A DNA stretch of 64,000 nt from NCBI GenBank assembly GCA_004299305.1, contig SCPZ01000099.1, forward strand, positions 22,455-86,454, in the 5' to 3' direction. The notes beneath the pieces were generated by a model. It was not told the origin of the DNA and searched no databases. It saw only the letters and a list, made by a program, of their open reading frames with translations. A program made the translations under genes and the position numbers. The first letter of the stretch is position 1, and every line of letters starts with the position of its first letter. This stretch comes from Methylobacter sp. (lineage in GTDB: Bacteria > Pseudomonadota > Gammaproteobacteria > Methylococcales > Methylomonadaceae). Positions 44,179 through 63,085 of this stretch are shown piece by piece.

Positions 44179-45270
44179 TTAGCTTTTTTTAAACAGCGCC
44201 CTGGTAGGCGCCTGCATAATGAGTTGCGGAATGGCCGATAAAGGCAAAATGCCATCGACAGCGCCCAATTTGACCGCTTCTTTAGGCATGCCGTAGACCA
44301 CGCAACTGGTTTCATCTTGGGCTATTGTCAGCGCACCGGCGTCGTGCATTTCTTTCATGCCGTGAGCGCCATCATCCCCCATGCCGGTTAGGATAATGCC
44401 TACCGCATTAGCCCCGGCAGATTGCGCAGTGGAGCGGAATAATACGTCAACCGAGGGGCGGTGCCTACTGACCAGTGGGCCGTCTTTAACATCAACCCGG
44501 TACTGGGCGCCGCTACGTTGCAGCAACATGTGCCTGCCGCCGGGGGCGATTAAAACCAAACCGGGCAAGGCTCTATCATTTTGCTCGGCTTCTTTTACCG
44601 TAACTTGGCAAATGCCGTCCAACCTTTTGGCAAAGGCGGCCGTAAAATGTTCAGGCATGTGTTGTACTACGACAATGGGAGGGGCGGAACGCGGCAACTG
44701 GGTAAATAGGTATTCCAAGGCTTGCGTACCGCCGGTTGAGGTGCCGATGACGATCACCCGGTCGGTCGTTTGTATCATGGGTTTAAGGATGCTGGTGCTG
44801 AACACGCTGTCTGTATTTGCGGCGGCATGAATGGGCGTTGCGGTGCTCGACTTGATTATTCTGGGCCGGGACCCCGCAGCGGCCTTGATAACGTCGATAA
44901 TGGCGGCTTTGGATTCTTGCAGGAAGTTGCGCAAGTTTACTTTCGGCTTGGTGATAATATCGACCGCGCCGGAACTCATGGCCTGCATGGTTACTTCCGC
45001 ACCTTTCTCGGTTAAAGTGGAACAAATGACGACGGGGGTTGGGCGCTCACTCATCAATTTTTTAAGAAAAGTCACTCCGTCCATACGGGGCATTTCAATG
45101 TCCAATACAATGACATCGGGCCATTCGGTTTCCATGCGCTTCATCGCAAAAATAGGGTCAGGCGCAGCACCAATCACTTTTATGCCTGATACGCCGTCCA
45201 GCAACCCCGTCAATACCTGTCGCACTACGGCAGAATCATCGACAATCAATACTTTAATTTCATTTGACAT
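44179..45270 (-). CDS. cheB: Chemotaxis protein-glutamate methylesterase CheB
   Basis: Removes methyl esters from, and deamidates, chemoreceptor glutamines. Receiver domain 1-115 ([12 protein letters not shown], Asp57 in [13 protein letters not shown]), linker, and methylesterase domain with the serine of [12 protein letters not shown], His in [12 protein letters not shown] and Asp in [12 protein letters not shown] start at [15 protein letters not shown]; 363 residues. The 26 residues before it are not conserved. Third gene of cheR-cheD-cheB. Confidence 0.95.
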
Positions 45271-45430
45271 GTTTTTCGTTACTATTTCGCAGCCAAAAAC
45301 AGGATGCTGATAATTGTGATTAAATAAGATGCAACTATTCAGCAGCAAAAATGAAACGCCATAGATTTACAGGTTTTAAATCTGTAGCGAATTTAACATC
45401 AGCTGAGTCGTTAAGTTATTAATGGCGCAG

Positions 45431-46057
45431 CTACCAAAAATCGACTTGGTCCGGTGGCTGCGGGGTATGGATGACGGTATTTTTTTTCAAGAGGCGCCGT
45501 TCCTGTTGAATAACTGTCTGCTCTTCATAGTATTCGATATTTTTAACATAGACCGAAAAATCGCTCATCAGGAAAAAAATGTTACGGCCTATATTGCCCC
45601 CTAAACCGGAGGCTACCAATGGAATTCGCTCGGTTCGTAAGAAAGTTTTTATGAATTCGCAATTGACCTCACCGATAGATAGGCCGCCGCGTGACTCATT
45701 GCTCAGTTGCAGCACATCACCGCCGCCAAAGGCTTTGGCTTTTAAATGGATGCGTTGCGCGCCTTGCTTCAGCATTTTGTTGATCAGTAACTCCATGGCA
45801 TGGATGCCGTAGCGCCCGCTCTCGGTGCTTAATAAGGTCGCTTTGTGAGCTGTACCTAATAAGGCTGCATTATGAGCCGAGTGCTGCTGGGCCAGTAAAA
45901 AATGATTCATGCCTATCACACGATTAATCGGATCGTACAAACAAGCGGCTACGCATGACCCCAATAAGGTGGAAATGATTTCATTTTTTTTAGTAACGTA
46001 GCTTTCGCCGGGATCAATGATGACACGCGGCACGCCTTGATAATGTCCTATTTGCAT
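45431..46057 (-). CDS. cheD: Chemoreceptor glutamine deamidase CheD
   Basis: 208 residues. Catalytic Cys35 in LLGSCVAACLYD and His52 in GMNHFLLA are in place; FGGGDVLQLS and PLVASGLGGNIGRNIFF are typical. Deamidates receptor glutamines and in many bacteria binds CheC. It overlaps the 3' end of cheR by ten bases, so translation is coupled. Confidence 0.95.
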   Translation of the reverse strand: MQIGHYQGVPRVIIDPGESYVTKKNEIISTLLGSCVAACLYDPINRVIGMNHFLLAQQHSAHNAALLGTAHKATLLSTESGRYGIHAMELLINKMLKQGAQRIHLKAKAFGGGDVLQLSNESRGGLSIGEVNCEFIKTFLRTERIPLVASGLGGNIGRNIFFLMSDFSVYVKNIEYYEEQTVIQQERRLLKKNTVIHTPQPPDQVDFW

Positions 46058-46860
46058 GGTTTTCGATAAATTGAAGGTGTCACCATGGATAACTCGGTTT
46101 TAATGCTGTGCAAGGTTTCAGAATGGCTGATAAAAAAATAGCCGCCCGGTTTTAATGTTGAAATTACGCGCTGCACTATATCCTGTTTGGTTTCCGTATC
46201 AAAGTAGATCAAGACATTGCGCAAAAAAATAACATCAAAGTGGCCAAGGCTTTTGGGTAGTTGGGTTTTAAGGTTGACTTGGCCAAAACTTACATGGTTT
46301 CTTATTTTTTCATCGACGCGAAAATAGCCTTCTTGCGAACGGACGCCTTTCAGGCAATATTTATCCAGATAATGCTGGTCCATATTATCCAGTCTATCCA
46401 TCAAGTACACGCCTTTTTGTGCGGTTTCCAGTACATCGGTATTGACATCTGAGCCGAAAATCTCCCATTTTCTCATGCCCAGTCCTTCGGCTAAGACCAT
46501 ACCGATAGAGTAACTTTCTTCGCCAGTAGAGCTTGCAGCGCTCCACAGACGAAAATTATCGCCTCGCCAGGGTTTAATAATTTGTTCATGAAGAAAATCA
46601 AAATGCTTAGGTTCACGAAAAAAATACGTTTCGTTGGTGGTCAGTATATTAACCATCAATTGAAATTCGTGGGGATATTGCCCGGTATTCAGCAATTGGT
46701 AGTATTGACTATAGGTTTGCAAATCATAATGCAACAAGCGTTTGGCTAATCGGCTGGCGACCATGATTTTTTTTTCCGGTGCAAGTGCGATGCCTGCGTG
46801 ATCGTAAATAATGCGCCTGAAATGAGAAAACTCTTCGGTGCTGATGGGTTCAATGCTGAT
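46048..46860 (-). CDS. cheR: Chemotaxis methyltransferase CheR with a non-canonical start
   Basis: Methylates receptor glutamates using S-adenosylmethionine. The first ATG in frame is at 46764 (MVASRLAKRL), but in-frame sequence upstream encodes STEEFSHFRRIIYDHAGIAL and PEKKI, which match the start of CheR family proteins. Following this back reaches AGGGAG, six bases, then ATC-AGC-ATT-GAA. From the ATC the protein is 270 residues, the usual CheR length; from the ATG it is 238 and lacks part of the N-terminal domain. No ATG, GTG or TTG is in frame. SAM-binding LWSAASSTGEESYS and FLRNVLIYFD are intact. Start may be AUC, or the start codon has been lost. Confidence 0.85.
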   Translation of the reverse strand: MSIEPISTEEFSHFRRIIYDHAGIALAPEKKIMVASRLAKRLLHYDLQTYSQYYQLLNTGQYPHEFQLMVNILTTNETYFFREPKHFDFLHEQIIKPWRGDNFRLWSAASSTGEESYSIGMVLAEGLGMRKWEIFGSDVNTDVLETAQKGVYLMDRLDNMDQHYLDKYCLKGVRSQEGYFRVDEKIRNHVSFGQVNLKTQLPKSLGHFDVIFLRNVLIYFDTETKQDIVQRVISTLKPGGYFFISHSETLHSIKTELSMVTPSIYRKPCK

Positions 46861-47085: not shown

Positions 47086-48249
47086 ATGCCGCAAGTCCGC
47101 AATAACAGCGACAGTCAATTTTTGTACGCTTCACTACCTGCATTGCCGGTTATTTTCGGCGGGCTGGTCGTTAGTTGGCAAGATGGGGCTGCTTTAGATA
47201 CCGTATGTGCCAGCTTATTGCTGGTGTTGTGCGGAATAGGGAGCGGTTTGTTTTTGTGGCATCGCCATGTTAACGAATTGGCTCACATCAATGCCTGTTG
47301 GGAGCATGACGAAAACAGCAAGATAGATGCAGTTGAGACCTATACCACCGAATTGGAGCGTCTGCTGTTGACCATAAGCCCGATACTTTCTCAACACGTA
47401 ATGGCTTCGCGGGAACATACCGAGCAGGAGATTATCTCGCTAACGAGTCGTTTTTCCGGCATGGTTAATGATCTTAAGCAGATCGTTGACAGTGCCGATA
47501 ATACCTTGAACGGTCAACACGATCATCTGGAAAGTATCACCAATACCACTCGCGATTTGCTGCAACCGGTCCTGGAATCGCTCAGACGGATTCATCAGGT
47601 GGAACACGGTGTTATGGGTGAGATACAAAAACTGTCAGGGTACATGAGCGGCCTGAATGCTACTGCCGCAGAAGTACACAATCTGGCTGGACAAATTAAC
47701 CGGTTGGCCAATGAAGCATCTTCAGTCGGCGAGCAAGGCTTTGCGGTTGTTGCAGGTAATGCGCGTAAATTGGCGGATGATGCTTTACAAATCGATCAGC
47801 GCTTGACTAACAATGCTACCGATATTATTGCCGCTGTAAATGCCACGGTAACAGTTTCGGAAAGTGCCGGACAGGTCGATGACTCAACATTGTTCCAGGC
47901 CGAAACTAATATTAACCAAACCTTATCCCAACTGAGACTGGCTTTAATCCACTACCGTGACGATATTGAAGCGCTCAGGAACAACGCCGAGCAAATTCGT
48001 GGCGAGATCAATAATGTGCTGGTGGCCTTGCAATTTCAGGACCGTGTTAGCCAAATATTAACGCAAGTCGAAAATAACTTGCTGAACCTGCAAAAAACTA
48101 TTGAAAAAATACAAAAACAAGGCCGCAATCGCGACGGCAATATGCTTCGCGTCGATGAAGCCGTGGAGCATATAGAAGAAAACTACAAGTCAGTCAGCTC
48201 TCGACCTAACCAGGCACAGGACGACTCAGACGACTTAACTTTTTTTTAA
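47086..48249 (+). CDS. MCP-like chemotaxis protein with shortened signalling tip
   Basis: 387 residues. Two closely spaced hydrophobic helices at the N-terminus (about 15-33 and 38-62), a helical region, and a signalling-like coiled coil where AGQINRLANEASSVGEQGFAVVAGNARKLA stands for the MCP tip. Compared with the usual [26 protein letters not shown] about six residues are missing at the tip. The C-terminal half has VLVALQFQDRVSQILTQV, a motif of MCP-like proteins that act with CheA. First gene of the right-pointing chemotaxis cluster. Confidence 0.75.
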   Translation: MPQVRNNSDSQFLYASLPALPVIFGGLVVSWQDGAALDTVCASLLLVLCGIGSGLFLWHRHVNELAHINACWEHDENSKIDAVETYTTELERLLLTISPILSQHVMASREHTEQEIISLTSRFSGMVNDLKQIVDSADNTLNGQHDHLESITNTTRDLLQPVLESLRRIHQVEHGVMGEIQKLSGYMSGLNATAAEVHNLAGQINRLANEASSVGEQGFAVVAGNARKLADDALQIDQRLTNNATDIIAAVNATVTVSESAGQVDDSTLFQAETNINQTLSQLRLALIHYRDDIEALRNNAEQIRGEINNVLVALQFQDRVSQILTQVENNLLNLQKTIEKIQKQGRNRDGNMLRVDEAVEHIEENYKSVSSRPNQAQDDSDDLTFF

Positions 48250-48844: not shown

Positions 48845-49177
48845 ATGACCGCAAAAGCTAAGAAAAACGACGGGACGCTGTGTGTATCCATTAAGGATGA
48901 CATGACCATCTACAATGCTGCATCACTAAAGGAAACGTTGTTAGGCTATTGCCAGCCCGGTACACATGAGTTGCAACTGGATTTATCGGCTGTGACTGAA
49001 ATAGACAGCGCGGGTTTGCAATTACTGCTGTTATTAAAGACAGAAGCGCAACAACGCGGCTTTACCCTGCGTTTGTTGCGGCATAGCGAAGCGGTGATTG
49101 AGGTTTTTGAGCTGCTTAAACTCAGTATGTATTTTGGCGATCCCATTGTTATCCCGGCTAATTGGAAAAAATCATGA
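48845..49177 (+). CDS. STAS domain protein
   Basis: 110-residue stand-alone STAS domain (anti-sigma factor antagonist fold): LCVSIKDDMTIYNAASLKETLL, LQLDLSAVTEIDSAGLQLLLLL with Ser in the position phosphorylated in SpoIIAA-type proteins, LRLLRHSEAVIEVFELL. Similar STAS proteins occur before cheA in many environmental gammaproteobacteria. Its stop overlaps the cheA start (ATGA). Confidence 0.92.
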   Translation: MTAKAKKNDGTLCVSIKDDMTIYNAASLKETLLGYCQPGTHELQLDLSAVTEIDSAGLQLLLLLKTEAQQRGFTLRLLRHSEAVIEVFELLKLSMYFGDPIVIPANWKKS

Positions 49178-51369
49178 GCGATATCAATCCCGCACTGGAA
49201 ACCTTTTCCCAGGAAGTTGACGAATTACTGACGGCAATGGAAGAAGCCTTGTTAGGTTTGGAAGCAATGCCTGACGATGCCGATTGCATCAACAGCATTT
49301 TCCGCGCCATGCATACCATCAAAGGCTCTTCCGGGTTGTTTGGTTTTGACGATGTGGTCGCCTTCACCCATGAGGTTGAAACCGTATTAGACCAAGTCAG
49401 GAATGGCGAACGTACGATTGACGCAGAACTCATCGCTGTTTTGCTGGCCTGTCAAGACCACACCGCTCGGATAATCCAGCATGTTCTTTGCAACGAGAAC
49501 GAACCGTTACCGGAGGAACTACAGCAGCAGGGTCAGGCGCTGATTGTCCAATTAACAGGGGAGTTGACCGTTACCGGCGGAATGCCCTCGACGCAACAGG
49601 AAAAAACCGGTCATTTTGAAGTCGATGCCAACACCACAGACAGTCGCGACAATTGGGTTATTAGCCTGACTTTCAAACAGAATGCCTTGCGTAACGGCAT
49701 GGACCCATTATCGTTTATTCGTTATCTGCAAACGCTGGGTAAAATCATTGAAGTGATTATTACCATGCCGACGATTCCTCGTATTGAGGATATGAATCCC
49801 GAAGACTGTTATCTTAATTTTAAAATAGCCTTTAACAGCAGCACGGATAAAAAAACCATAGAAGATGTTTTTGAGTTTGCCGAAGATGATTGCAACATTC
49901 ATATTTTGCCGCCGAATTCCAGGCAAGAACATTATCTGCTGCTGCTGGCGAATTTGCCGGAAGATCAAGTCAAACGCTTAGGTGAAATGCTGGTCGAGAT
50001 TGGCGCTTTAACTGAAAAAGAAGTCGTCAACATACTCAACGAGCAGCATGACAACAACAACAATGATGATGAGCCCAAACCCCTTGGCGAAATGCTGATT
50101 GCTAAAAACATTCTGCAACAACCCATTATAGAACAAGCACTTAAAAAGCAAGAAGCCGTCAAGCAAAAAATCAACAAGGAATCCAATTACATTCGGGTCG
50201 ATGCGGCCAAGCTGGGCTACCTGATTAACTTGGTCGGAGAGCTGGTGATTTCAGGCGCCGCGATGCGGCTGATGGTCGACAAACATGGTTTATCCGATGT
50301 CGATGATGTCGCCTCGACCATGAGCCACTTGGTGGAAGATATACGCGACACCGCCTTGCAATTGCGTATGGTGCAAATCGGTGAGACGTTTATGCGCTTC
50401 CAGAGAGTCGTGCATGATGTCAGCAAGGAGTTAGGCAAGCAAATTCAACTGCAAATCACCGGCGGCGAGTCCGAATTGGATAAAACCGTGGTCGAAAAAA
50501 TTAACGATCCATTAACCCACCTGGTGCGTAACTCGCTCGATCACGGCATTGAAACGCCCGCAGTGCGGTTACAGGCAGGCAAACCTGAAAAAGGCACCAT
50601 ACAGCTCAACGCTTATCATGATTCAGGACGCATCGTGATCCAGGTCAGTGATGATGGTCAAGGCCTGGACCCGGAAAAAATCGTCGCCAAAGCGATAGCC
50701 AAAGGACTGATTAAACCGGATCAAGCGCTCAGCAACAGTGAAATTTACAACCTTATTTTCGAACCTGGTTTAAGCACCAAAGAAGAAGCCAACAACCTGT
50801 CCGGTCGGGGCGTAGGCATGGACGTGGTCAGGCGCAATATCGAGTCATTACGCGGTAGCGTCTCCGTCGATAGCGAGTTGGGGCTAGGCACCACGGTAAC
50901 GATACACTTGCCGTTAACGTTGGCGATTATTGATGGCTTTATGGTGGAAGCGCAAAAGGAACGCTACATCATACCGCTGAGCATGGTTGAAGAATGCGTC
51001 GAAATGAGCGCCGATGAATGGCAAATTGATGACGTTCAGCATTATGTCAATTTACGAGGCCAAATTTTACCCTATTTACGTTTGGGCGATTTTTTCCACA
51101 AAAATAAAAAACATACCCCTGTTCAACGGGAAAGCCTGGTCGTTGTGCGTTTTGGCGAGGCAAAAGCGGGTTTTGTTGTAGATGAATTGCACGGCGAGAA
51201 TCAAACCGTCATCAAACCGCTCGGTAAGCTGTTTGAAAATCTTAATGGTATTGGCGGTGCAACCGTATTGGGCAGCGGCGATGTGGCGTTGATTCTTGAT
51301 GTGCAGGGGCTTATTCAGCACGCAAAAAAACGGGTAAATCCCACTTTGGCGCTGTCATCGGCGATTTAA
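49174..51369 (+). CDS. cheA: Chemotaxis histidine kinase CheA
   Basis: 731 residues from MSDINPALETF. P1 Hpt domain with His47 in FRAMHTIKGSSGLFG. A divergent P2 region follows (about 130-260). Next come two similar segments, RLGEMLVEIGALTEKEVVNIL (about 267-288) and PLGEMLIAKNILQQPIIEQAL (about 302-323), that look like the MshEN / GspE N-terminal repeats. Then the dimerisation domain (LINLVGELVISGAAM), HATPase (HLVRNSLDHGIE, VSDDGQGLD, SGRGVGMDVV) and a CheW-like domain. The extra repeats are not part of E. coli CheA. Start chosen inside the STAS stop. Confidence 0.95.
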   Translation: MSDINPALETFSQEVDELLTAMEEALLGLEAMPDDADCINSIFRAMHTIKGSSGLFGFDDVVAFTHEVETVLDQVRNGERTIDAELIAVLLACQDHTARIIQHVLCNENEPLPEELQQQGQALIVQLTGELTVTGGMPSTQQEKTGHFEVDANTTDSRDNWVISLTFKQNALRNGMDPLSFIRYLQTLGKIIEVIITMPTIPRIEDMNPEDCYLNFKIAFNSSTDKKTIEDVFEFAEDDCNIHILPPNSRQEHYLLLLANLPEDQVKRLGEMLVEIGALTEKEVVNILNEQHDNNNNDDEPKPLGEMLIAKNILQQPIIEQALKKQEAVKQKINKESNYIRVDAAKLGYLINLVGELVISGAAMRLMVDKHGLSDVDDVASTMSHLVEDIRDTALQLRMVQIGETFMRFQRVVHDVSKELGKQIQLQITGGESELDKTVVEKINDPLTHLVRNSLDHGIETPAVRLQAGKPEKGTIQLNAYHDSGRIVIQVSDDGQGLDPEKIVAKAIAKGLIKPDQALSNSEIYNLIFEPGLSTKEEANNLSGRGVGMDVVRRNIESLRGSVSVDSELGLGTTVTIHLPLTLAIIDGFMVEAQKERYIIPLSMVEECVEMSADEWQIDDVQHYVNLRGQILPYLRLGDFFHKNKKHTPVQRESLVVVRFGEAKAGFVVDELHGENQTVIKPLGKLFENLNGIGGATVLGSGDVALILDVQGLIQHAKKRVNPTLALSSAI

Positions 51370-52525: not shown

Positions 52526-54214
52526 ATGCTGAATAACCTCACTATTAAAGCCCGCCTGATTCTGGTTGTGGGTCTTATGTCCTTACTTGCCGTCACGCTG
52601 GGGATAATCGGCTTGAACGGGATGAAAAAAGCCAATGAAGGCTTGCGCACCGTTTATGAGGATCGCACTGTTCCGATGGGGCAGCTAGCCATAATTGATT
52701 CAAATTTGATACAGAATCGACTCGCAATTGTTAATTCTTTGGTGTTCAAGGATGAAACCCAGAAAAATATCGAACTGGTCAAGAACAATATTCAAGTGGT
52801 TAACAAGGCATGGGATGCGTATACGTCAACCTACCTAACCCCGGAAGAAAAAAAATTGGCCGATAAGTTTGCCAAGGATCGTAAACGATTTGTTGAAGAA
52901 GGATTAAACTCAACCCTGGAATATTTGGCTGCCGGAAATACCGAAGCCGCAGAAAAACATATCAGAGAAGCTGTACGCCCATTATTCGTGCCCGTTATGG
53001 AAGGCATAGATGCGTTGCAACAATTACAGCAGGATGTCGCCAAACAGGAATACGACTCTGCTAAAACCCGTTATGAAGACAGTCGTTTTATTTCGATAAC
53101 TCTTCTGGTGGTGGGTTTGTTGCTGGCAATGTTTATCGGTTTTATGCTGGTTCGAGGAATATCGCGTTCCCTTTTTGCGATGCAACAGTTTGCAGAGTCT
53201 TTAGCGAAAGGCGACCTGACTGCCAACATCGATCTCAACCAAAACGATGAAATTGCCGTCTTGGCTCAATCAATGACAGTCATGCGCGACCAACTTAGAG
53301 GTGTTGTACAGCAAGTTCGCACCAATTCCGACGCCTTGGGCAGCGCCTCACAGGAGATCAGCGCGACCGCCCAGTCCATCAGTCAAAGCGCTACCGAACA
53401 GGCTTCAGGCGTCGAGCAAACCACGACGTCCATCGAAGAGTTGAGCGCATCGGTTAAACAAAACGCCGATAACGCCAAGCTGACCAATAACATGGCAACG
53501 ACTGCGGCGACAGAAGCCGCCAATGGCGGGCAAGCCGTAAAACGCACCGTGGAGGCAATGAAGGAAATTGCCGATAAAATCGGTTTGATTGAAGATATTG
53601 CCTATAAAACCAATTTGTTGTCACTCAATGCTGCGATTGAAGCCGCCTTGGCCGGGGAGCACGGCAAAGGCTTTACTGTCGTTGCCGCCGAAGTCAGGAA
53701 ACTGGCGGAAAACAGCCGGGTAACCGCGCAAGAAATCAATAGCTTGGCTAAAAATAGCGTGAAGATTGCCGAAGACGCGGGTAACTTGTTAGAGAAAATG
53801 GTGCCCAATATCCAGAAAACCGCAGACTTGGTCGAAGAAATTACCGCATCTTCGGAAGAACAGGCACAAGGCATAGGCCATATCAGCGATGCGATCGGCC
53901 AGCTGGATAAAGCGGCGCAACAAAATGCATCGGGGTCGGAGGAGCTTGCCGCCACGGCAGAAGAACTGAGCGGTCAAGCCATGCAACTGCAACAGGTGAT
54001 GTCGTTCTTTAAAATTGATGCCAACCAAAGTCGTATGGGACAAGCGTTTACCCCGTCTAACAAACCTATAGGCGGAAACAGAAAAACCGGCAAAAAAACC
54101 GCCCCTCATTTTACTCCGGTCGGGTCTACGACAATAACTTCCAGGCCAGCGCTACCCGGTAAAGCGGGAGGGGGCAAACCTGAATTTAATGAGCATGATT
54201 TTGAACGATTTTGA
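52526..54214 (+). CDS. Methyl-accepting chemotaxis protein (MCP)
   Basis: 562 residues: transmembrane helix at 12-32, four-helix-bundle ligand-binding domain (about 35-185), transmembrane helix at 188-210, HAMP, and a long signalling coiled coil. The tip reads LNAAIEAALAGEHGKGF, with Leu where nearly all receptors have Arg (TTG at 53648). The neighbour receptor at 54820 has the normal [11 protein letters not shown] in otherwise almost identical sequence. The C-terminus EFNEHDFERF ends in DFERF, which fits the CheR-docking pentapeptide pattern. GGGAG before the ATG. Followed by cheW. Confidence 0.94.
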   Translation: MLNNLTIKARLILVVGLMSLLAVTLGIIGLNGMKKANEGLRTVYEDRTVPMGQLAIIDSNLIQNRLAIVNSLVFKDETQKNIELVKNNIQVVNKAWDAYTSTYLTPEEKKLADKFAKDRKRFVEEGLNSTLEYLAAGNTEAAEKHIREAVRPLFVPVMEGIDALQQLQQDVAKQEYDSAKTRYEDSRFISITLLVVGLLLAMFIGFMLVRGISRSLFAMQQFAESLAKGDLTANIDLNQNDEIAVLAQSMTVMRDQLRGVVQQVRTNSDALGSASQEISATAQSISQSATEQASGVEQTTTSIEELSASVKQNADNAKLTNNMATTAATEAANGGQAVKRTVEAMKEIADKIGLIEDIAYKTNLLSLNAAIEAALAGEHGKGFTVVAAEVRKLAENSRVTAQEINSLAKNSVKIAEDAGNLLEKMVPNIQKTADLVEEITASSEEQAQGIGHISDAIGQLDKAAQQNASGSEELAATAEELSGQAMQLQQVMSFFKIDANQSRMGQAFTPSNKPIGGNRKTGKKTAPHFTPVGSTTITSRPALPGKAGGGKPEFNEHDFERF

Positions 54215-54228
54215 CAGGTAGGATGAAT

Positions 54229-54795
54229 ATGGACCAATTAATACATAAAAAAGAGCACAAAACCGAGTTAATAGCTCATGATCAATTACGCCAGTACCTT
54301 ACTTTTCAGGCTGGCAATGAGAATCTGGCGATCAGTATTTTAGACGTCAAGGAAATTATCGAGCTTAACACCATTACCGACGTGCCGATGACGCCCGATT
54401 ATATCCGTGGCGTTATTAACTTGCGCGGTAATGTGGTGCCTGTCATCGATTTGTCGGCGCGCCTAGGAAGGCAAAGCAGTGAAATAACCAAACGCAGCTG
54501 TATTGTCTTAGTGCAGGTTGAATACAACGATGACGGCCAGTTATTGGGAATGTTGGTCGATGCCGTTGATGAAATCCTGGAAATTCCCGAAGTGAATATT
54601 ATGCCGCCTCCCGATTTTGGAGCCGATATTCGAACCGATTTTATTCAGTCGATGGGGCGAGTGGGGGACGAGTTTATTATTTTGCTGAATATCAATCGCG
54701 TACTTTCGATAAAAGAATTATCCCAGCTCAAACAGGTTGCTGATTACGAAGGCGGTAATGCAGGCAAAGAAACCAGCTTCGCTGCACTAAACTAA
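54229..54795 (+). CDS. cheW: Chemotaxis adaptor protein CheW
   Basis: About 188 residues. Couples receptors to CheA. CheW core: YLTFQAGNENLAISILDVKEII, the NLRGNVVPVIDLSARLG region, and ILEIPEVNIMPPPDFGADIRTDFIQSMGRV. I start at the MDQLIHKKEHK ATG because TAGGA lies five bases before it; an ATG at 54223 is also possible. The gene starts 15 bases after the stop of the first MCP and is followed by the second. Confidence 0.94.
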   Translation: MDQLIHKKEHKTELIAHDQLRQYLTFQAGNENLAISILDVKEIIELNTITDVPMTPDYIRGVINLRGNVVPVIDLSARLGRQSSEITKRSCIVLVQVEYNDDGQLLGMLVDAVDEILEIPEVNIMPPPDFGADIRTDFIQSMGRVGDEFIILLNINRVLSIKELSQLKQVADYEGGNAGKETSFAALN

Positions 54796-54819: not shown

Positions 54820-56703
54820 ATGAACGTAAAAGACTTAAGTATAAAAACCAAGATATTAACCGGTGCCTTTATGTTGGTATTGATTACCTGCGGATTCGGC
54901 ATGTTGTCAAAACTTTACATAGGCAAAGTATCGGGCTCGCTATTCGGAATTACCGACAACAATGCTAAAGCGGTTGAATACGCAACCGGGGTCGAACGTA
55001 TGGCGCTATCGACCATCATGGAAGAAAAAAATTACCTGCTGGAAGAAAAAGACGAAGTGCAGCAGCGCGCCGAACAGGATCTCAAGGAATTAAACAGCTA
55101 CCTGGACAAAGTGGATGTCGTGGCGAAGCAATACAAAAACACCGAGTTATTGGGGCAATCGAAAACCGCAAGAGAAGGGGCGGCCCAGTACGCCGAGAAA
55201 TACAGGGCCGGTGTAGCAGCCTTGAAGGCCAACAAGCAAGCCGTAGCAGACATGGTGGAAAAGGGCGAGACTGTAGCCAAGGCGGCCGACAACTTTCTAA
55301 AAAGACAAGTCACCCTCTACACCGAAGCGATGAAGAAAGGTGTTAGCGGTCAGGAGCTTGATCAGTATGTCCAGCGTTATATCGTCGCGACCAACATCTC
55401 CGTTAAAGCGATGCAAATCATGCGCGAGGAAAAGGAAGAAGTTAATTACAAAAACCGTGAGTCATGGAAGAACATGCAAGTTTTATTGCCGGAGTTAATG
55501 GCCTTATATGACGATTTGCAAAAATTCGAATTGAGCGATGAAGCAACCAAATTGGTTGTAGAGGCTCGCAATGCAACGCGAGATTATAACCAGTCGGCCA
55601 AAAGCTGGATAGAAAACGACGATAAACTAAAGATTATTTTGAAGGATATGGCGAGCCTTGGCAGTAACGTTATCAAACAAGCGCAAGATGCCGAGGCCGC
55701 CGGCTATGCCCAGTTAGGTTCTGCGCGCACCGAAGCCGATCAACTGGTCAGTGAAGCTAACAGTATCATTATCGGCACCATCATTATTTCGATAGTGCTG
55801 GGCGTTATTATTGCGTTGTTTTTAGCCTCTATGATTACCAAGCCGATTATTTTAGGCGTTAAATTTGCCGAGTTGTTATCTGAAGGCGATCTTACTGCAC
55901 GGATTGATATTGACCAGAAAGACGAGATCGGCGTCTTGGCTAATGCGCTGAAAACAATGCGTGACCAGCTCAACAGCGTTGTGCAGCAAGTTCGAACCAA
56001 TTCCGATGCATTGGGCAGCGCCTCGCAGGAAATCAGCGCAACCGCCCAGGCCATTAGTCAAAGTGCGACCGAACAAGCCTCGGGTGTTGAACAAACCACG
56101 GCATCCATCGAAGAGTTGAGTTCCTCAGTCAAACAAAATGCCGATAATGCCAAACTAACCAACAATATGGCGACGACCGCAGCGGAAGAAGCCACGAATG
56201 GCGGCATAGCAGTAAAACGTACCGTAGAGGCGATGAAGGAAATCGCCGATAAAATCGGTTTAATTGAAGATATTGCTTATAAAACCAATTTGTTATCGCT
56301 TAATGCTGCGATTGAAGCGGCGCGTGCCGGTGAGCACGGCAAAGGTTTTACCGTCGTTGCCGCCGAAGTCAGGAAGCTGGCGGAAAACAGCCGGGTAACC
56401 GCGCAAGAAATCAATAGCCTGGCTAAAAACAGCGTCAAGATTGCCGAAGACGCCGGTATCCTGTTGGAAAAAATGGTGCCTAATATCCAGAAAACCGCAG
56501 ACTTGGTCGAAGAAATTACCGCCTCTTCAGAAGAGCAGGCGCAAGGTATAGGCCAGATCAGCGAGGCGGTTAATCAACTGGATAAGGCAGCCCAACAAAA
56601 TGCATCGGGGTCGGAAGAGCTTGCCGCGACAGCGGAAGAACTGAGCGGCCAAGCCATGCAACTGCAACAAGTTATGGCGTTCTTTAAAGTGGATAATCGT
56701 TAA
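54820..56703 (+). CDS. Methyl-accepting chemotaxis protein with long periplasmic helical domain
   Basis: 627 residues: TM1 at 14-33, a large all-helical periplasmic region of about 270 residues (the HBM type, IMEEKNYLLEEKDEVQQRAEQ), TM2 near 310-335, HAMP and signalling coiled coil with normal [17 protein letters not shown]. From HAMP onward it is almost identical to the receptor at 52526, so the two share recent gene conversion or duplication. No docking pentapeptide at the C-terminus (FFKVDNR). Confidence 0.94.
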   Translation: MNVKDLSIKTKILTGAFMLVLITCGFGMLSKLYIGKVSGSLFGITDNNAKAVEYATGVERMALSTIMEEKNYLLEEKDEVQQRAEQDLKELNSYLDKVDVVAKQYKNTELLGQSKTAREGAAQYAEKYRAGVAALKANKQAVADMVEKGETVAKAADNFLKRQVTLYTEAMKKGVSGQELDQYVQRYIVATNISVKAMQIMREEKEEVNYKNRESWKNMQVLLPELMALYDDLQKFELSDEATKLVVEARNATRDYNQSAKSWIENDDKLKIILKDMASLGSNVIKQAQDAEAAGYAQLGSARTEADQLVSEANSIIIGTIIISIVLGVIIALFLASMITKPIILGVKFAELLSEGDLTARIDIDQKDEIGVLANALKTMRDQLNSVVQQVRTNSDALGSASQEISATAQAISQSATEQASGVEQTTASIEELSSSVKQNADNAKLTNNMATTAAEEATNGGIAVKRTVEAMKEIADKIGLIEDIAYKTNLLSLNAAIEAARAGEHGKGFTVVAAEVRKLAENSRVTAQEINSLAKNSVKIAEDAGILLEKMVPNIQKTADLVEEITASSEEQAQGIGQISEAVNQLDKAAQQNASGSEELAATAEELSGQAMQLQQVMAFFKVDNR

Positions 56704-57068
56704 TTTGGCTGTGTTTTTCCTCATTTCGGCAACGATTGCGGGGGGGTCACGTATCGGTTCTGCATGATCAGCCCTAATGCAGGCGGTAAGGTGCGCTACG
56801 GGTCTAAGCCGGTTTAATCCTGCTTTCATAGCGTTATTTTTAGGAATAACAATTGTAACTATTCAGCGAAAAAAGAAATAGAACACGGATGCCAAAAGTA
56901 GGCGCCTCTAGGCGACACGGATAGGACGGATTTACGCAGATTTTTTTTCAAAATATTCTGGGTTTTTAATCGGTGATTATCCGTTTAATCCGTGTTCCAT
57001 TAATCATTTTTAGCATACGCTGAATAGTTACTAACAATTTTGTTTAAACTTGATTATCACAAAATACT
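56704..57068. other. Intergenic region carrying a MITE-like element
   Basis: About 365 bases. The second half is the dispersed element at 56855-57031; before it is a stretch with no recognisable feature. Confidence 0.6.
56855..57031. repeat. Dispersed palindromic element, copy B (MITE-like)
   Basis: 177 bp with the same ends as copy A (GTAACTATTCAGCG...CGCTGAATAGTTAC), in opposite orientation. It carries an extra CAAAAGTAGGCGCCTCTAGG insert that copy C also has. Lies directly upstream of the porin-like gene. Confidence 0.9.
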
Positions 57069-58568
57069 ATGAGCCGTATACAAGAAAATAGATCGGGTTT
57101 CTTTTGCTTCTTAGTTCTTTGTTTTGCTTTAGTCCCCGCTGTTAATGCCAAAACTAACGATGACGAGCATATTCGTGAAATTGTTGCCAGCCTACTGAAG
57201 GAAAAAGACCGGAAAATCGAACAGCTTGAAGCGCGCATCAAGCAATTGGAGCAAGGGAATCAGGTAAAGCAGGTTGCTGTGGAAGAACCAGCCAGGCAAA
57301 CTAAAAACGCCGTGGCAGAGTCAGACACGCCCCAGCCCAAACCCGTTGTCGATGCCGCCGCAAAAACAGTCGCAAGCAGCGGTAACGATGCAACAGTTAG
57401 CGGCAAACTGAAGGATTTGACTAAAAAAGTCGATGAACTGAAAGCGACCGCAGAAGCGAATGGCTTAAATATCAGCGGCTTTTTCGATATCAACGCAAAA
57501 ACCGGCAATCCCACCGACCAAACCTTTAGTGTCGGTTCCGTAGAGCTGGATCTCGATTATGCTCACGACGAACATTTCGGCGCCAGCACGGCGCTGGTGC
57601 TGTGCGGCGATTCATCGGGAGCCGGTTCTGACGCGCCCGCCCATATCTACTGCGGCGGCAGCGGTCCGGGTGGTCTGGGCGGAGGTAGCGCCGGTTTTGC
57701 CGCTGCGTTGGTCGATTACCATTTATTCAGCGACCGCATTCCTCCCCGTGGACGTATTTTCAATAATCAGGGATTGCACATTCAGGTCGGTCGTTTCGAC
57801 TTACCGTTCGGCACCGATTACCAAAACTTCGCCAACAAAGACCGGGTAACTATTACCGCGCCGCTCACCACGTCCAGAATGCAGCTGGGTGGTTACAACG
57901 CCGATGGCCTGCGTTCATACGGTTCATGGAATATGTTCAACTATTCGGTATTCTGGACCGATGCGATATATGCCAATGATGGTCATGCCATCGGCGGTCG
58001 ATTGGGCATGTCGTTGGGACAAAACGCTTATACGGTTCACCATAACAAGCCGGACGCTATCCAGGAAGGTATCGAATTCGGAGTATCCCATCTTAGCGAA
58101 CTGAATGGCAGTAACAACATCAGGAACACCGTTTACGGCGCCGATTTGAGCATCGGCTACGGTATGTTGCGCTTGCAGAACGAATTAATGTTGTTACAAG
58201 CGCATCAAGACGATTTTCTGGATGCCGACGGCAACATCGCGCTCACTACGACCGACACCCCTTTTGGCAGAAGCCGTCAACTGGGCTATCACGCGACGTT
58301 GATAGCCGATTTGGAAAGATTCATCAACTACCCGCTACGAGCCTTTGCCCGCTATGGCCGTTGGCAGCCCTCGCAAAGACTGGGTTTGGATTTCGATCGC
58401 AGTACAGTGGCCGTCAACAATATATCGATGTTAAGTTTGGGACTTAATTATCAATTCAGCGAGCATTTGCGCATCAAGTTCGAATACAACGACTCATTGG
58501 GTACCGAAATAGCGGAGCGTTACTTCAGCAAAAAATTGGGCATAGCCCAACTAGTCATGTCTTTTTAA
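57069..58568 (+). CDS. Outer membrane porin-like beta-barrel protein
   Basis: 499 residues. Signal peptide (cleavage near AVNA-KTN), a coiled coil (EKDRKIEQLEARIKQLEQG) and a long Ala/Pro/Lys linker, then a barrel from about residue 140 with alternating strands (VGSVELDLDYAHDEHFG, LHIQVGRFDLPFG, FEYNDSLGTEIAERYF). It ends in Phe, the outer-membrane signature. An extracellular loop is Gly/Ser-rich with two Cys. It stands one base before the tetrahaem cytochrome gene and is probably its partner. No exact family recognised. Confidence 0.8.
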   Translation: MSRIQENRSGFFCFLVLCFALVPAVNAKTNDDEHIREIVASLLKEKDRKIEQLEARIKQLEQGNQVKQVAVEEPARQTKNAVAESDTPQPKPVVDAAAKTVASSGNDATVSGKLKDLTKKVDELKATAEANGLNISGFFDINAKTGNPTDQTFSVGSVELDLDYAHDEHFGASTALVLCGDSSGAGSDAPAHIYCGGSGPGGLGGGSAGFAAALVDYHLFSDRIPPRGRIFNNQGLHIQVGRFDLPFGTDYQNFANKDRVTITAPLTTSRMQLGGYNADGLRSYGSWNMFNYSVFWTDAIYANDGHAIGGRLGMSLGQNAYTVHHNKPDAIQEGIEFGVSHLSELNGSNNIRNTVYGADLSIGYGMLRLQNELMLLQAHQDDFLDADGNIALTTTDTPFGRSRQLGYHATLIADLERFINYPLRAFARYGRWQPSQRLGLDFDRSTVAVNNISMLSLGLNYQFSEHLRIKFEYNDSLGTEIAERYFSKKLGIAQLVMSF

Positions 58569-58569
58569 T

Positions 58570-59082
58570 ATGAACAAACTTCTTAGATTTTTATTATCCG
58601 TCGGCAGCGGCTTAATGCTGTCGTTTATGCTGACCGCGCAAGCCGCCGATAACCCACATGTGGTATCCAAACAAGACGGTCCAGCCACCTGTGTTATCTG
58701 CCACAGCGACATACCGAAATTAAAGGACGACAATATCCTGATAAGCAAAAATCTGCCGGTTGATCTGAGCCGCTTCAGCCAAAATGGCGTGACCATGTGT
58801 TCATCCTGTCACGATCCCAATGTGGTTCATAAAGTCGGTGTGAATGTCGACTTTCCGGTACCGGCAGACTTACCCTTAAACCAAGATAACGAGATCATCT
58901 GTTTGACTTGCCACTACACCCATGGCAGTCTGGATAGCGATAAGCCGCAGGCCAGTTGCAGCATGATGGATAGAATGCTGAATGCCGAACGCTTGCATAA
59001 AAGCTTTTTACTTCGCCGAAACAATAGTGACGGCGAACTGTGTTTAATCTGTCACAATCCCAATCAAGGTACGAAGCAATGA
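58570..59082 (+). CDS. Tetrahaem c-type cytochrome, periplasmic
   Basis: 170 residues with a signal peptide (MNKLLRFLLSVGSGLMLSFM, cleavage near AQA-ADN) and four haem-binding CxxCH motifs: CVICH (41), CSSCH (77), CLTCH (111), CLICH (158). Extra histidines (HKVG, HYTHG) may be distal ligands. Resembles the doubled-CXXCH family. Electron carrier between the inner membrane and periplasm or outer membrane. The porin-like gene upstream and the HAMP gene overlapping downstream (ATGA) suggest a three-gene unit. Confidence 0.9.
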   Translation: MNKLLRFLLSVGSGLMLSFMLTAQAADNPHVVSKQDGPATCVICHSDIPKLKDDNILISKNLPVDLSRFSQNGVTMCSSCHDPNVVHKVGVNVDFPVPADLPLNQDNEIICLTCHYTHGSLDSDKPQASCSMMDRMLNAERLHKSFLLRRNNSDGELCLICHNPNQGTKQ

Positions 59083-59669
59083 ATAATAATTTGCTCAAAC
59101 GGCGTAGCGTTTTTATCAAAAAGGGTTTTCAGGGCCGCTTCATTCTCGGTATCTTAGCCATCATCCTGCTGTCCGGCCTGTGTTCTGCGCTGCTGATTTA
59201 TTGGATTACCGGCGATGAACTACGGGCTTGGTCACTATCGCCACATGCCAATATTGACAAAGCATCGGAACGACTGGGACTGTCGATTCTGATCGGCAAC
59301 GCGGTTTCGATTTTGGTGGCCGGAGCCGTTGCCGTGGTTGCTGTGTTGTATGCCTCGCACAAAATCGTTGGCCCCTTGCATAGATTTGAAACTCTATGCG
59401 AACAGGTGGGTAACGGTAATCTGGATGAACTTAACGCGTTAAGGGCAAACGATCAATTGCATGAATTAGCGCGAGCGTTTGACGATATGGTTGCCAAACT
59501 ACGCAGCCGCCGCGATCAGCAAGCTGGACTTCTAGTTGGCATTAACAACCACATCAGGGATTTAAAGAGCAGCGATAACCTGACAACAGAACAACTCAAT
59601 ATTCTTTCTGAGCTGGCTGAAGCGGTTGCGCAATTGAATAAACCTGATGACAAAGAGGGTAACTATTGA
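59079..59669 (+). CDS. HAMP domain membrane protein
   Basis: 196 residues from MNNNLLKRRS (start in ATGA overlap with the cytochrome gene). Two transmembrane helices (about 20-42 and 68-95) flank a short periplasmic loop, then HAMP (KIVGPLHRFETLCEQVGNGNL, ARAFDDMVAKLRS) and a short helical tail. No output domain such as a kinase or GGDEF. The combination with the cytochrome suggests a redox-linked signalling or anchoring protein. Function unknown. Confidence 0.8.
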   Translation: MNNNLLKRRSVFIKKGFQGRFILGILAIILLSGLCSALLIYWITGDELRAWSLSPHANIDKASERLGLSILIGNAVSILVAGAVAVVAVLYASHKIVGPLHRFETLCEQVGNGNLDELNALRANDQLHELARAFDDMVAKLRSRRDQQAGLLVGINNHIRDLKSSDNLTTEQLNILSELAEAVAQLNKPDDKEGNY

Positions 59670-59751: not shown

Positions 59752-59909
59752 GTAACTTCAGCAGATAAAAAATAGCACACGGATGATGCGGATTAGACAG
59801 ATAATCACTGATAAAACTCTAAGTCATTAGAGTTGTTAAAAATCCGTTTAAATTCGTCCAATCAGTGTCATCCGTGTGCCATTATAAATTAGCCATGCTG
59901 AGTAGTTAA
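59752..59909. repeat. Dispersed palindromic element, copy D (MITE-like)
   Basis: Ends GTAACTTCAGCAG and GCTGAGTAGTTA, with CACACGGATGATGCGG / TCATCCGTGTGCC arms and AAACTCTAAGTC / ATTAGAGTTGTT centre. A diverged member of the family at 33109, 48263 and 56855. Confidence 0.8.
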
Positions 59910-60087
59910 GATTGTAGAATGTGGTGGTTTATTTTTGCGGGTTACCTAACGAGATTGATCAATTTATAAACCACAAAGAACACCAGGTTTACGATTTTTG
60001 TGAACTTGGTGTTCTTTGTGGTTTTATGCTTTAAACTGATATACAGCGTTTCAAACTCAGTTCCGTGCAAAATTTTTAAATTATTTG

Positions 60088-60262: not shown

Positions 60263-63085
60263 ATGAAAATTAACATGCCGATCACCAATGTTGAACACGC
60301 TCTTACAGAGACTGATTCCATTGTTACCAAGACCGACCTGAAGGGGATCATTACTTATGCGGGTGATGATTTTATCCAAATCAGCGGGTTTACCAAGGAA
60401 GAGTTGATCGGTGCATCACATAACATAATACGCCATCCAGACATGCCGGTCGAAGCGTTCGAGGATTTGTGGAAATCGCTGAAAGCGGATCGCCCCTGGA
60501 CTGGGGTGGTCAAAAATCGCTGTAAAAACGGCGATTTTTACTGGGTGTTAGCCAACATCACACCTTATTATGAAAACGATCAGTTGGTCGGCTATATGTC
60601 GGAACGCAGTAAACCCAGCGCAAAACAAGTTGCAGAAGCTGTTGATGCCTACCGAAAGTTTCGTGAAGGTAAGGCGGATAATTTAAAAATCCAGGACGGG
60701 AAAATCGTTAAAAAAACCTTGTTCGGGAGATTTCCGTCATTAAAAAACATCAGCATTAAAGCCCGTCTATTGATGGTCATCGCTATCATGTCAGTCCTAC
60801 TGCTGGTTATCGGTGCTCTGGGAATTCTCGGCATGAGCAAGGACAGCGAGGGTTTACGCACCGTTCATAATCATCACATGCTGTCCTCTAATCGGATTTT
60901 CCAGGTTCAAAAGCTGCTGCTGACTAACCAGTTGCGTATTACCGCCTGTCTGTTCAATCCCACTCCCGAGTTGATCCAGAAAAATCTTGCCGAAGTGGGA
61001 CAAAACATCGCAACTATCAACGAGATCTGGGATGCGTATATTGCAAACTCTCTGGGTCCTGATGAAAAAAAGCTGGCGGATCAAGTTACAGTCGACAGGA
61101 ATCGTTTTGTAATGGAAGGCTTGCAGTCGGCTGTTTCGGCATTACGCAGCAATGATACCGCGCTTGCCAATAAGATTATCGAGGATAAGTTCGCCCCCCT
61201 TTACGAGCCGGTCGGCGAGGGGATTCAGAAATTATTGCAATTGCAGGTCGACGACACCTGGCAGGAATTAGAGGCAAGTCAGTCACGTTATTACAGCACC
61301 CGCGAAATCGCCGGCATCTTGATCGCCTTGGGTATTTTATTGGCGCTGTGCTTGAGTTTTTCCCTGCTGCGCTCCATCGTACCTCCGCTTAATACGGCTA
61401 TCAGTCATTTCCGTCAAATTGCCCAGGGTAATTATCATAATACAATTGAAATAAAAGGGAGGGACGAGGTTGGTAAGGTGATGGCGGCGCTTAAAGCTAT
61501 GCAGATCAAGCTGGGATTTGACATCGCAGACGCTAAACGTATTGCCGACGAATACCTGCGCATAAAAATTGCCTTGGATAATGTCAGTACCGGCGTGATG
61601 ATTGCCGACAATGAACGCAATATTATTTACGTTAATAAATCGGTAATTAATATGTTCGGCAAAGCCGAAGCCGACATTCGCAAGCAACTGCCGAATTTTT
61701 CTGCGGCAAATCTGATTGGAACCAATATTGATAATTTTCATAAGATTCCATCGCATCAGGCTAAGCTACTTGCCGAATCTACCGACAGCTTAAGCGCTAT
61801 CAGTCTCAACTGGGGTGACCGTTATATGGTGGTCACTGTCAATCCGGTTATTAGTTTTCAAAACAAGCGCATGGGCTCGGTGGCGGAGTGGTTGGATCGT
61901 ACTGCTGAGGTCATGGTGGAAAAAGAAGTGGCCGTTATTTTAGTTGCTGCGGTGATGGGCGACTTCACTCAACGTATAAACATGCAGGGCAAGGTAGGTT
62001 TTTATCGTGAGTTGAGTGAATCGATTAATCAGCTTATGCAAACCAGTGAGAGTGGTCTCAATGAAGCGGTGCGGGTATTCAATGCCTTGTCTCATGGGGA
62101 TTTGACCGAGAAAATTGTCAATTATTACTCCGGCACCTTTGGGCAACTCAAGGATGATGCCAATTCCACGGTGGATGATCTCAATGATATTATTGGCCAA
62201 ATTAAGCATGTCGCAGAGTCGATTCACAGTGCGGCTAAAGAAATCGCTCACGGCAACACGTCTTTGTCGCACCGAACCGAAGAACAAGCGGCCAGCTTGC
62301 AACAAACCACTGTCAGTATGCAAAAACTGACCTCGACGGTGCAACAAAATACCGAAAATGCCAAACATGCCAGTACGCTTGCTGTTAGCGCCTCGGATAC
62401 TGCCGGTAAGGGGGTCGCAGTAATCAACCAAGTAGTGAAAATGATGGAAGGAATTAATGAATCATCACGCAAGATTGTCGAGATTATTTCAGTCATAGAC
62501 AGCATTGCCTTCCAGACCAATATTCTTGCGCTCAATGCCGCAGTAGAAGCGGCTCGTGCCGGGGAACAGGGACGAGGCTTTGCGGTGGTGGCTGGTGAAG
62601 TGCGTAATCTCGCACAACGTGCCGCCGCCGCCGCTGGAGAAATCAAAAACCTGATTGGCGATTCGGTTGAGAAGGTTGAGGACGGCAGTAAACTGGTTAC
62701 GCAGGCCGGTTTAACCATGGAAGACATTGTTAACTCCATTCATGGCGTTACGACCATCATGACCGAAATCAGCGCAGCTTCTGTTGAGCAGTCTTCCGGG
62801 ATTGAACAAGTGAATATGGCTATATGCCAGATGGACGATGTAACCCAGCAAAATGCCGGCTTGGTAGAACAAGCCTCAGCCGCAGCAGAATCGCTGGAAG
62901 AGCAGACGCAACAGCTGACGCTAAGGGTGACGCATTTTAAAATGGCTGGCGATACGGATGTTGTGGATAGTTCTTTTTCTATAGTGCCGACTAAGAAGGT
63001 AAAAAATACGGCTCATATTTCAGTCGGGCATGTAGTCAAACTGGATCCACAGTCTTCTGATAGCGGCGGTTGGGAGGAATTTTAA
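60263..63085 (+). CDS. PAS-containing methyl-accepting chemotaxis protein
   Basis: 940-residue paralogue of the receptor at 18215 with the same order: Aer-like PAS (about 15-125, [18 protein letters not shown]), TM helix near 170-190, four-helix sensor, second TM, HAMP, inner PAS ([20 protein letters not shown]) and signalling hairpin ([20 protein letters not shown]). Unlike the paralogue it has an extension ending GGWEEF, which fits the xWxxF CheR-docking pentapeptide of major receptors. Probably an energy or redox taxis receptor. Confidence 0.94.

Follow-up and report, generated by a model that had tools for sequence, protein, structure and literature searches.

Organization of the locus

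In the window, that is, the whole stretch of DNA that was analysed (64,000 nucleotides, Methylobacter sp.), a trio of genes encodes a porin, a tetrahaem cytochrome and a HAMP-domain membrane protein (Table 1). The cytochrome gene starts at ATG 58570, with a gap of 1 nt after the porin gene, and it overlaps the HAMP gene by 4 nt (ATGA) when the latter is taken to start at ATG 59079. An alternative HAMP start at GTG 59040 was disfavoured; relatives begin at the residue matching ATG 59079.

Table 1 Features of the trio and its surroundings (positions within the window)
Feature	Position	Strand	Remarks
CheB, CheD and CheR genes	44179..46764	-	Same chemotaxis cluster
CheA	49162..51369	+	
Chemoreceptor, TarH/4HB-HAMP-MCP	52526..54214	+	
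CheW	54211..54795	+	
Chemoreceptor (MCP)	54820..56703	+	Directly upstream of the trio (366 bp), same strand
Porin gene	57069..58568	+	Outer-membrane porin, first gene of the trio
Cytochrome gene	58570..59082	+	Periplasmic tetrahaem c-type cytochrome, signal peptide
HAMP gene	59079..59669	+	HAMP-only inner-membrane protein with two transmembrane (TM) segments
Dispersed repeat	59760..59912	.	Between the trio and the PAS receptor; matched 71 times in the genome
PAS-4HB-HAMP-PAS-HAMP-MCP receptor	60263..63085	+	593 bp downstream of the trio; sensor not of the trio-linked type

The gene order in the window is CheB-CheD-CheR (minus strand), CheA, MCP, CheW, MCP and then the trio. This connection with CheA, CheW and two chemoreceptors directly upstream was absent from the preliminary description of the DNA, which had placed the porin one base before a tetrahaem periplasmic cytochrome overlapping a HAMP membrane protein without output domain. 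All of these features were borne out. The same description mentioned a PAS receptor just after the trio. Such a receptor exists, but the 593-bp gap before it spans the dispersed repeat and hairpins, and it is therefore probably not co-transcribed with the trio. Given this gap and its different sensor, it was rejected as the operon partner of the trio.

Related copies of the ~150-bp dispersed repeat are found on both sides of the trio (after the HAMP gene, and at 56873-57000 before the porin gene) and could aid its mobility. Between the cheR/D/B genes and cheA, a 387-aa protein (47086-48249) contains a degenerate chemoreceptor-tip-like stretch (GEQGFAVVAGNARKLADDA) and had no Pfam match.

Features of the three proteins

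The porin consists of a signal peptide, a periplasmic coiled coil (~30-64), a second helix (110-130) and a predicted barrel. The earlier label of a porin-like protein was right, but the match is weak by sequence, with an E-value of 0.011 to Porin_O_P and a score of 15.4 bits, below the curated cut-off of 20.9 (the best homologue in the alignment reached 3.7e-5). PDB sequence and profile searches with the porin gave nothing significant. An AlphaFold2 model of low confidence (pLDDT 57, pTM 0.57) has 16 strands and an N-terminal coiled coil. When this model was searched with Foldseek, the top 50 matches were general or specific porins, the best being OmpK36/OmpC, OmpM1, OprP/OprO and Occ porins (TM 0.32-0.41 of the query), and MtrB was not among these 50. 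Thus, at the fold level of a low-confidence model, the barrel does match simple nutrient porins, which the preliminary description had regarded as a finding against its proposal. No MtrB match was obtained by sequence for the window porin, and the MtrB family model had no match in the window genome in a search run with no positive control.

In OprP/OmpC-type porins, loop L3 forms the eyelet. Conservation of L3 (residues 245-276) is 82 %, compared with 37-76 % for the remaining long loops. Arginines in or around it (R227, R229, R242, R259, R270 and R282) are invariant. From the model, the porin looks like a 16-strand OprP/general type with a conserved L3 eyelet, unlike MtrB. Because L3 is conserved and the invariant arginines cluster there, the channel is perhaps selective and may prefer anions.

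The cytochrome carries the haem motifs CVICH, CSSCH, CLTCH and CLICH, i.e., four haems in ~145 residues, and matches Paired_CXXCH (5e-11) and Cytochrome_C7 (1e-5) in Pfam. Four CXXCH motifs were present in 24 of 24 homologues. Outside these motifs, His30, His87 and His118 are invariant (24/24) and His143 is variable (14/24), so the four haems would have only three invariant spare histidines. PDB sequence and profile searches with the cytochrome yielded nothing significant, and its AlphaFold2 model (pLDDT 52) was unusable. The gene is single copy in the 4.49-Mb window genome, and no match to it was found in the plasmid collection that was searched.

The HAMP protein has an N-in topology with TM segments at ~21-43 and ~69-91, followed by a HAMP domain at 93-142 (E-value 7e-8, above the curated cut-off) and a tail of ~50 aa; an output domain is absent. 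The periplasmic His56 is invariant (19/19), and the motif H94-K95-I-x-G-P-L-x-R at the start of the HAMP domain is invariant or nearly so in the same 19 sequences. Only generic HAMP matches were obtained in PDB sequence and profile searches.

Conservation of the trio

The cytochrome profile detected homologues in 37 of the 237 genomes of the family, representing 9 of 29 genera. A scan of 84,980 species placed 25 cytochrome loci in Methylococcales-type records, and the cytochrome also occurs in a second gammaproteobacterial family (L040/L083). Where a relative has the cytochrome, the porin and HAMP genes are nearly always present too, and the suspicion that the genes might not be co-conserved is thereby refuted. 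The order porin, cytochrome, HAMP is constant, with gaps of -4 to ~20 nt, judged from likely starts, at almost all loci. Locus L082 has the porin and cytochrome genes without the HAMP gene, and the short contig of L091 shows none either. A second, decayed copy in genome G890 (L093, 6814-8837) is interrupted by transposase-like genes, beside which its cytochrome gene is truncated, with HAMP-CheR-CheD left. A literature search, with most subscription journals outside its range, returned no description of a porin-cytochrome-HAMP cassette.

In a tree of the concatenated trio, the window grouped with L092 (G890) and L011 (Methylomonas STC_4) with a support of 0.995; the trios from congeneric species (L022, L024 and L029) fell elsewhere. 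This grouping with che-embedded Methylomonas trios suggests that the che-linked trio moved between Methylomonas and the Methylobacter-like lineage of the window, the linkage therefore having been inherited or transferred as a unit.

Related arrangements were seen in more distant bacteria. Triads of a HAMP-type protein, a 7-haem cytochrome and another HAMP-type protein occur in other Pseudomonadota (L079, 8523-10449; L080, 1173-3109; L081, 2866-4949). A HAMP-multihaem-HAMP triad in a Thermodesulfovibrionia (L036, 9427-11409) lies in an extracellular-electron-type cluster with a porin, NHL-like repeats and multihaem cytochromes.

Linkage to chemotaxis genes

A total of 33 trios with visible flanks were compared (window, L011-L035, L083, L089, L090, L092-L094 and L096). 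Flanking genes were called from ORFs with homology checks, and Pfam confirmed CheA, CheW, CheR, CheD and MCP. A chemotaxis gene was the immediate neighbour of 30 trios, and a chemoreceptor or che gene was found within three genes at 32 of the 33 loci. At L029 and L083 the MCP is two genes off, behind a dCache-PAS-GGDEF-EAL protein, and L020 is the sole trio without any che neighbour. At L031, ~1 kb containing nothing but doubtful small ORFs separates the trio from the receptor; the receptor at L089 is partly masked with the sensor alone visible, and that at L094 is frameshifted.

As the loci are related by descent and not phylogenetically independent, it is fairer to count distinct genomic surroundings, of which there are at least 8. 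With ~36 MCP genes in the window genome and ~4,100 genes assumed, an MCP is expected as immediate neighbour by chance at ~1.7 % of loci; when only eight contexts are counted, the chance of the observed linkage is <1e-11.

Two layouts were observed. In Class I, the trio lies inside or behind a che cluster, as in MCP-CheW-MCP-trio (L011, 59 bp before the porin gene), CheA-MCP-CheW-MCP-CheW-trio (L092) and MCP-MCP-CheW-[porin-cytochrome-HAMP]-CheR-CheD (L090 in G881, with overlaps of -4 to -14 nt). In Class II, an MCP gene follows the trio, mostly within 180 bp. Most Methylomonas have a gap of 0-15 bp (L021 has 99 bp), L033 and L034 have one of 4-5 bp, and most others have 53-176 bp. Operon-like linkage of the trio to MCP, CheW, CheR and CheD genes is thus conserved, as is expected of a chemotaxis component.

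The dCache-PAS-GGDEF-EAL gene directly before the porin gene (L029, 4875-8234; L083, 10514-13279) occurs in two distant lineages and suggests an output through c-di-GMP in place of chemotaxis.

Receptors linked to the trio

The cytoplasmic halves of the Class II receptors differ (538-aa HAMP-MCP, PAS-HAMP-MCP, multi-HAMP-MCP, and PAS with zinc-binding CZB). All of them share one family of periplasmic 4-helix sensor containing VVQ[IV]QQFLTDV[GS]ATH or a close form, and the kinship across receptor groups was evident from profile E-values of 1e-16 or better and an hhalign probability of 99.6 %. Of the 37 trio genomes, 18 have the 538-aa receptor, versus 1 of 200 others (Fisher p 7e-16, genomes being counted as independent of phylogeny), and 17 of its 19 copies adjoin the trio. 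One receptor of this type, in a genome without the trio cytochrome (L086, 7495-9111; G894), lies beside a GGDEF-EAL gene.

The sensor is absent from the nearby MCPs of the window itself. It is not exclusive to trios, and the window genome has several. One of them (L084, 2951-8319, contig C31) is the orthologue of the fourth-gene chemoreceptor linked to the trio at L024, away from the trio. Its neighbours, a histidine kinase and a response regulator, have homologues beside the L024 trio. The signalling genes are therefore reshuffled around the trio. No CXXCH motif was found among the 29 MCPs that were examined.

Proposed function

We propose that the trio serves as a periplasmic input module for chemoreceptors that reports redox state, or an electron acceptor or redox-active solute (probability about 0.5). 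It is probably a sensing input for steering and not an ordinary electron wire. This reading draws support from the co-conservation of genes that keep a fixed order and overlap or nearly so, and from a che neighbour in 30 of 33 trios across at least 8 surroundings versus ~1.7 % expected. It is supported also by trios spliced between CheW and CheR-CheD (G881) or behind CheA-MCP-CheW-MCP-CheW (G890). Furthermore, downstream MCPs share one sensor despite differing cytoplasmic halves, the 538-aa receptor tracks the trio (18/37 versus 1/200), the window trio groups with che-embedded Methylomonas trios, and the HAMP protein lacks an output domain. Against this reading are the distant cytochrome and HAMP-only sets without MCPs (L079-L081 and L036), on account of which the HAMP protein may be a mere anchor for the cytochrome. 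The locus without che neighbour (L020), the locus without HAMP gene (L082) and the position of the usual fourth receptor on another contig of the window genome (L084) also count against it.

Gene order, co-conservation, the chemotaxis and sensor-family linkage and the conserved residues were observed, and the fold class was predicted at low confidence; we infer the stimulus, the physical contacts, the direction of electron flow and the relay role of the HAMP protein. A small solute, perhaps an anion, would enter via the dedicated porin, and the solute or the respiratory chain would alter the redox state of the tetrahaem cytochrome. As docking site for the cytochrome, we envisage the short face that the HAMP-only protein exposes to the periplasm, the 4-helix sensor of the linked receptor, or both. 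Lacking an output itself, the HAMP protein would hand the change on laterally to the MCP-CheW-CheA array. It is possible, though we hold this more tentatively, that the whole constitutes a new multi-protein chemoreceptor by which methanotrophs steer by periplasmic redox. In such a receptor, a soluble periplasmic tetrahaem sensor with its own selective porin would act through a HAMP-only adaptor, possibly sharing haem ligation via His56, on MCPs of one sensor family.

The main rival is a respiratory or detoxifying periplasmic redox module. Here the porin imports a substrate, the cytochrome shuttles electrons, the HAMP protein is an anchor or dock, and the MCP serves ordinary energy taxis to that substrate with no physical coupling. 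Conservation of the L3 eyelet points to a selective channel, and the invariant His56 of the HAMP protein (19/19) would suit haem contact next to a cytochrome with three invariant spare histidines for four haems. HAMP-only proteins do occur beside multihaem cytochromes without MCPs (L036 and L079-L081), but L079 and L080 are near sigma-54 two-component genes and a two-component-regulator propeller, pointing to signalling. HAMP domains serve in signalling, and that of the trio protein still matches above the curated cut-off. As the cassette has no catalytic subunit or quinol dehydrogenase gene and the trio is spliced inside che operons, we regard this module as less likely than the sensory one. 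That the linkage is coincidental in view of the numerous MCP genes, or reflects common descent of a single arrangement, is nearly refuted. The genome does have ~36 MCP genes and many loci share ancestry, but the surroundings, the layout and the MCP types differ while the sensor family is one, and chance remains <1e-11 even with 8 contexts only.

Conduits of the MtrA type have at least 10 haems, a cytochrome that spans the membrane and a large MtrB/PioB-type barrel able to sheath it. The preliminary description had proposed a redox-sensing or extracellular-electron unit. Its redox-sensing or taxis half is strengthened by the co-conservation and by the che linkage at 32 of 33 loci; its extracellular half is unsupported. 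A porin-cytochrome complex conducting electrons across the outer membrane, with the HAMP protein and MCP as add-ons, would agree with the adjoining porin and multihaem cytochrome genes. Extracellular electron transfer by methanotrophs has been reported (PMC13322032), and Shewanella congregation requires both mtrBC/omcA and mcp_cache (PMC5789149). Such a conduit is nevertheless improbable here, since the barrel is predicted to be a 16-strand general/OprP porin with an L3 eyelet, MtrB is missing from the top 50 structural matches, its family model had no match in the window genome (in a search without positive control), there are 4 haems only, and a gene for a surface cytochrome is absent. Neither the surroundings of the window trio nor the flanks read at other loci contained an extracellular multihaem partner.

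Significance and comparison with known systems

The input module proposed above would be of use for understanding how bacteria couple swimming to electron transfer at the inner membrane or beyond it. Being located in a chemotaxis operon of cultured methanotrophs (Methylomonas), the cassette offers a genetically tractable system for this coupling. Methylomonas methanotrophs inhabit oxic-anoxic boundaries and control methane emission. The cassette also draws attention to HAMP-only proteins as a family that accompanies multihaem cytochromes in several lineages.

The gene set of the trio is absent from CetA/CetB, DcrA and Shewanella congregation. CetA/CetB of Campylobacter jejuni is described as a bipartite energy-taxis receptor in which CetB senses via an FAD-PAS domain (PMC13401364). 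Both systems would have the sensing and MCP parts on separate genes, involve HAMP and concern energy or redox taxis; in the trio the candidate sensor is instead a periplasmic tetrahaem cytochrome, accompanied by a dedicated porin and a HAMP-only membrane protein. The gene adjacency and HAMP-only architecture would fit such a bipartite receptor. DcrA of Desulfovibrio vulgaris (cited in PMC13401364) is a c-type haem chemoreceptor in which, too, c-type haem is proposed to report oxygen or redox to an MCP. In DcrA the haem is within the MCP, whereas the haems of the trio are on a separate protein (no CXXCH in 29 MCPs).

The porin-cytochrome complex of Methylobacter is a separate MtrA/MtrB locus with a decahaem cytochrome (PMC13322032). 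Like the trio, it is found in Methylococcales and places the gene for an outer-membrane barrel next to that for a multihaem cytochrome, but it pairs decahaem MtrA with an MtrB/PioB barrel where the trio has a tetrahaem cytochrome and a predicted 16-strand porin, and no HAMP or MCP gene is reported there (PMC13322032). In Shewanella congregation, cytochromes and chemoreceptors are coupled to movement toward electron acceptors, as is proposed for the trio, and both are needed (PMC5789149). There the genes are unlinked and the conduit is a general respiratory one (PMC5789149), whereas the trio forms a dedicated, linked cassette.
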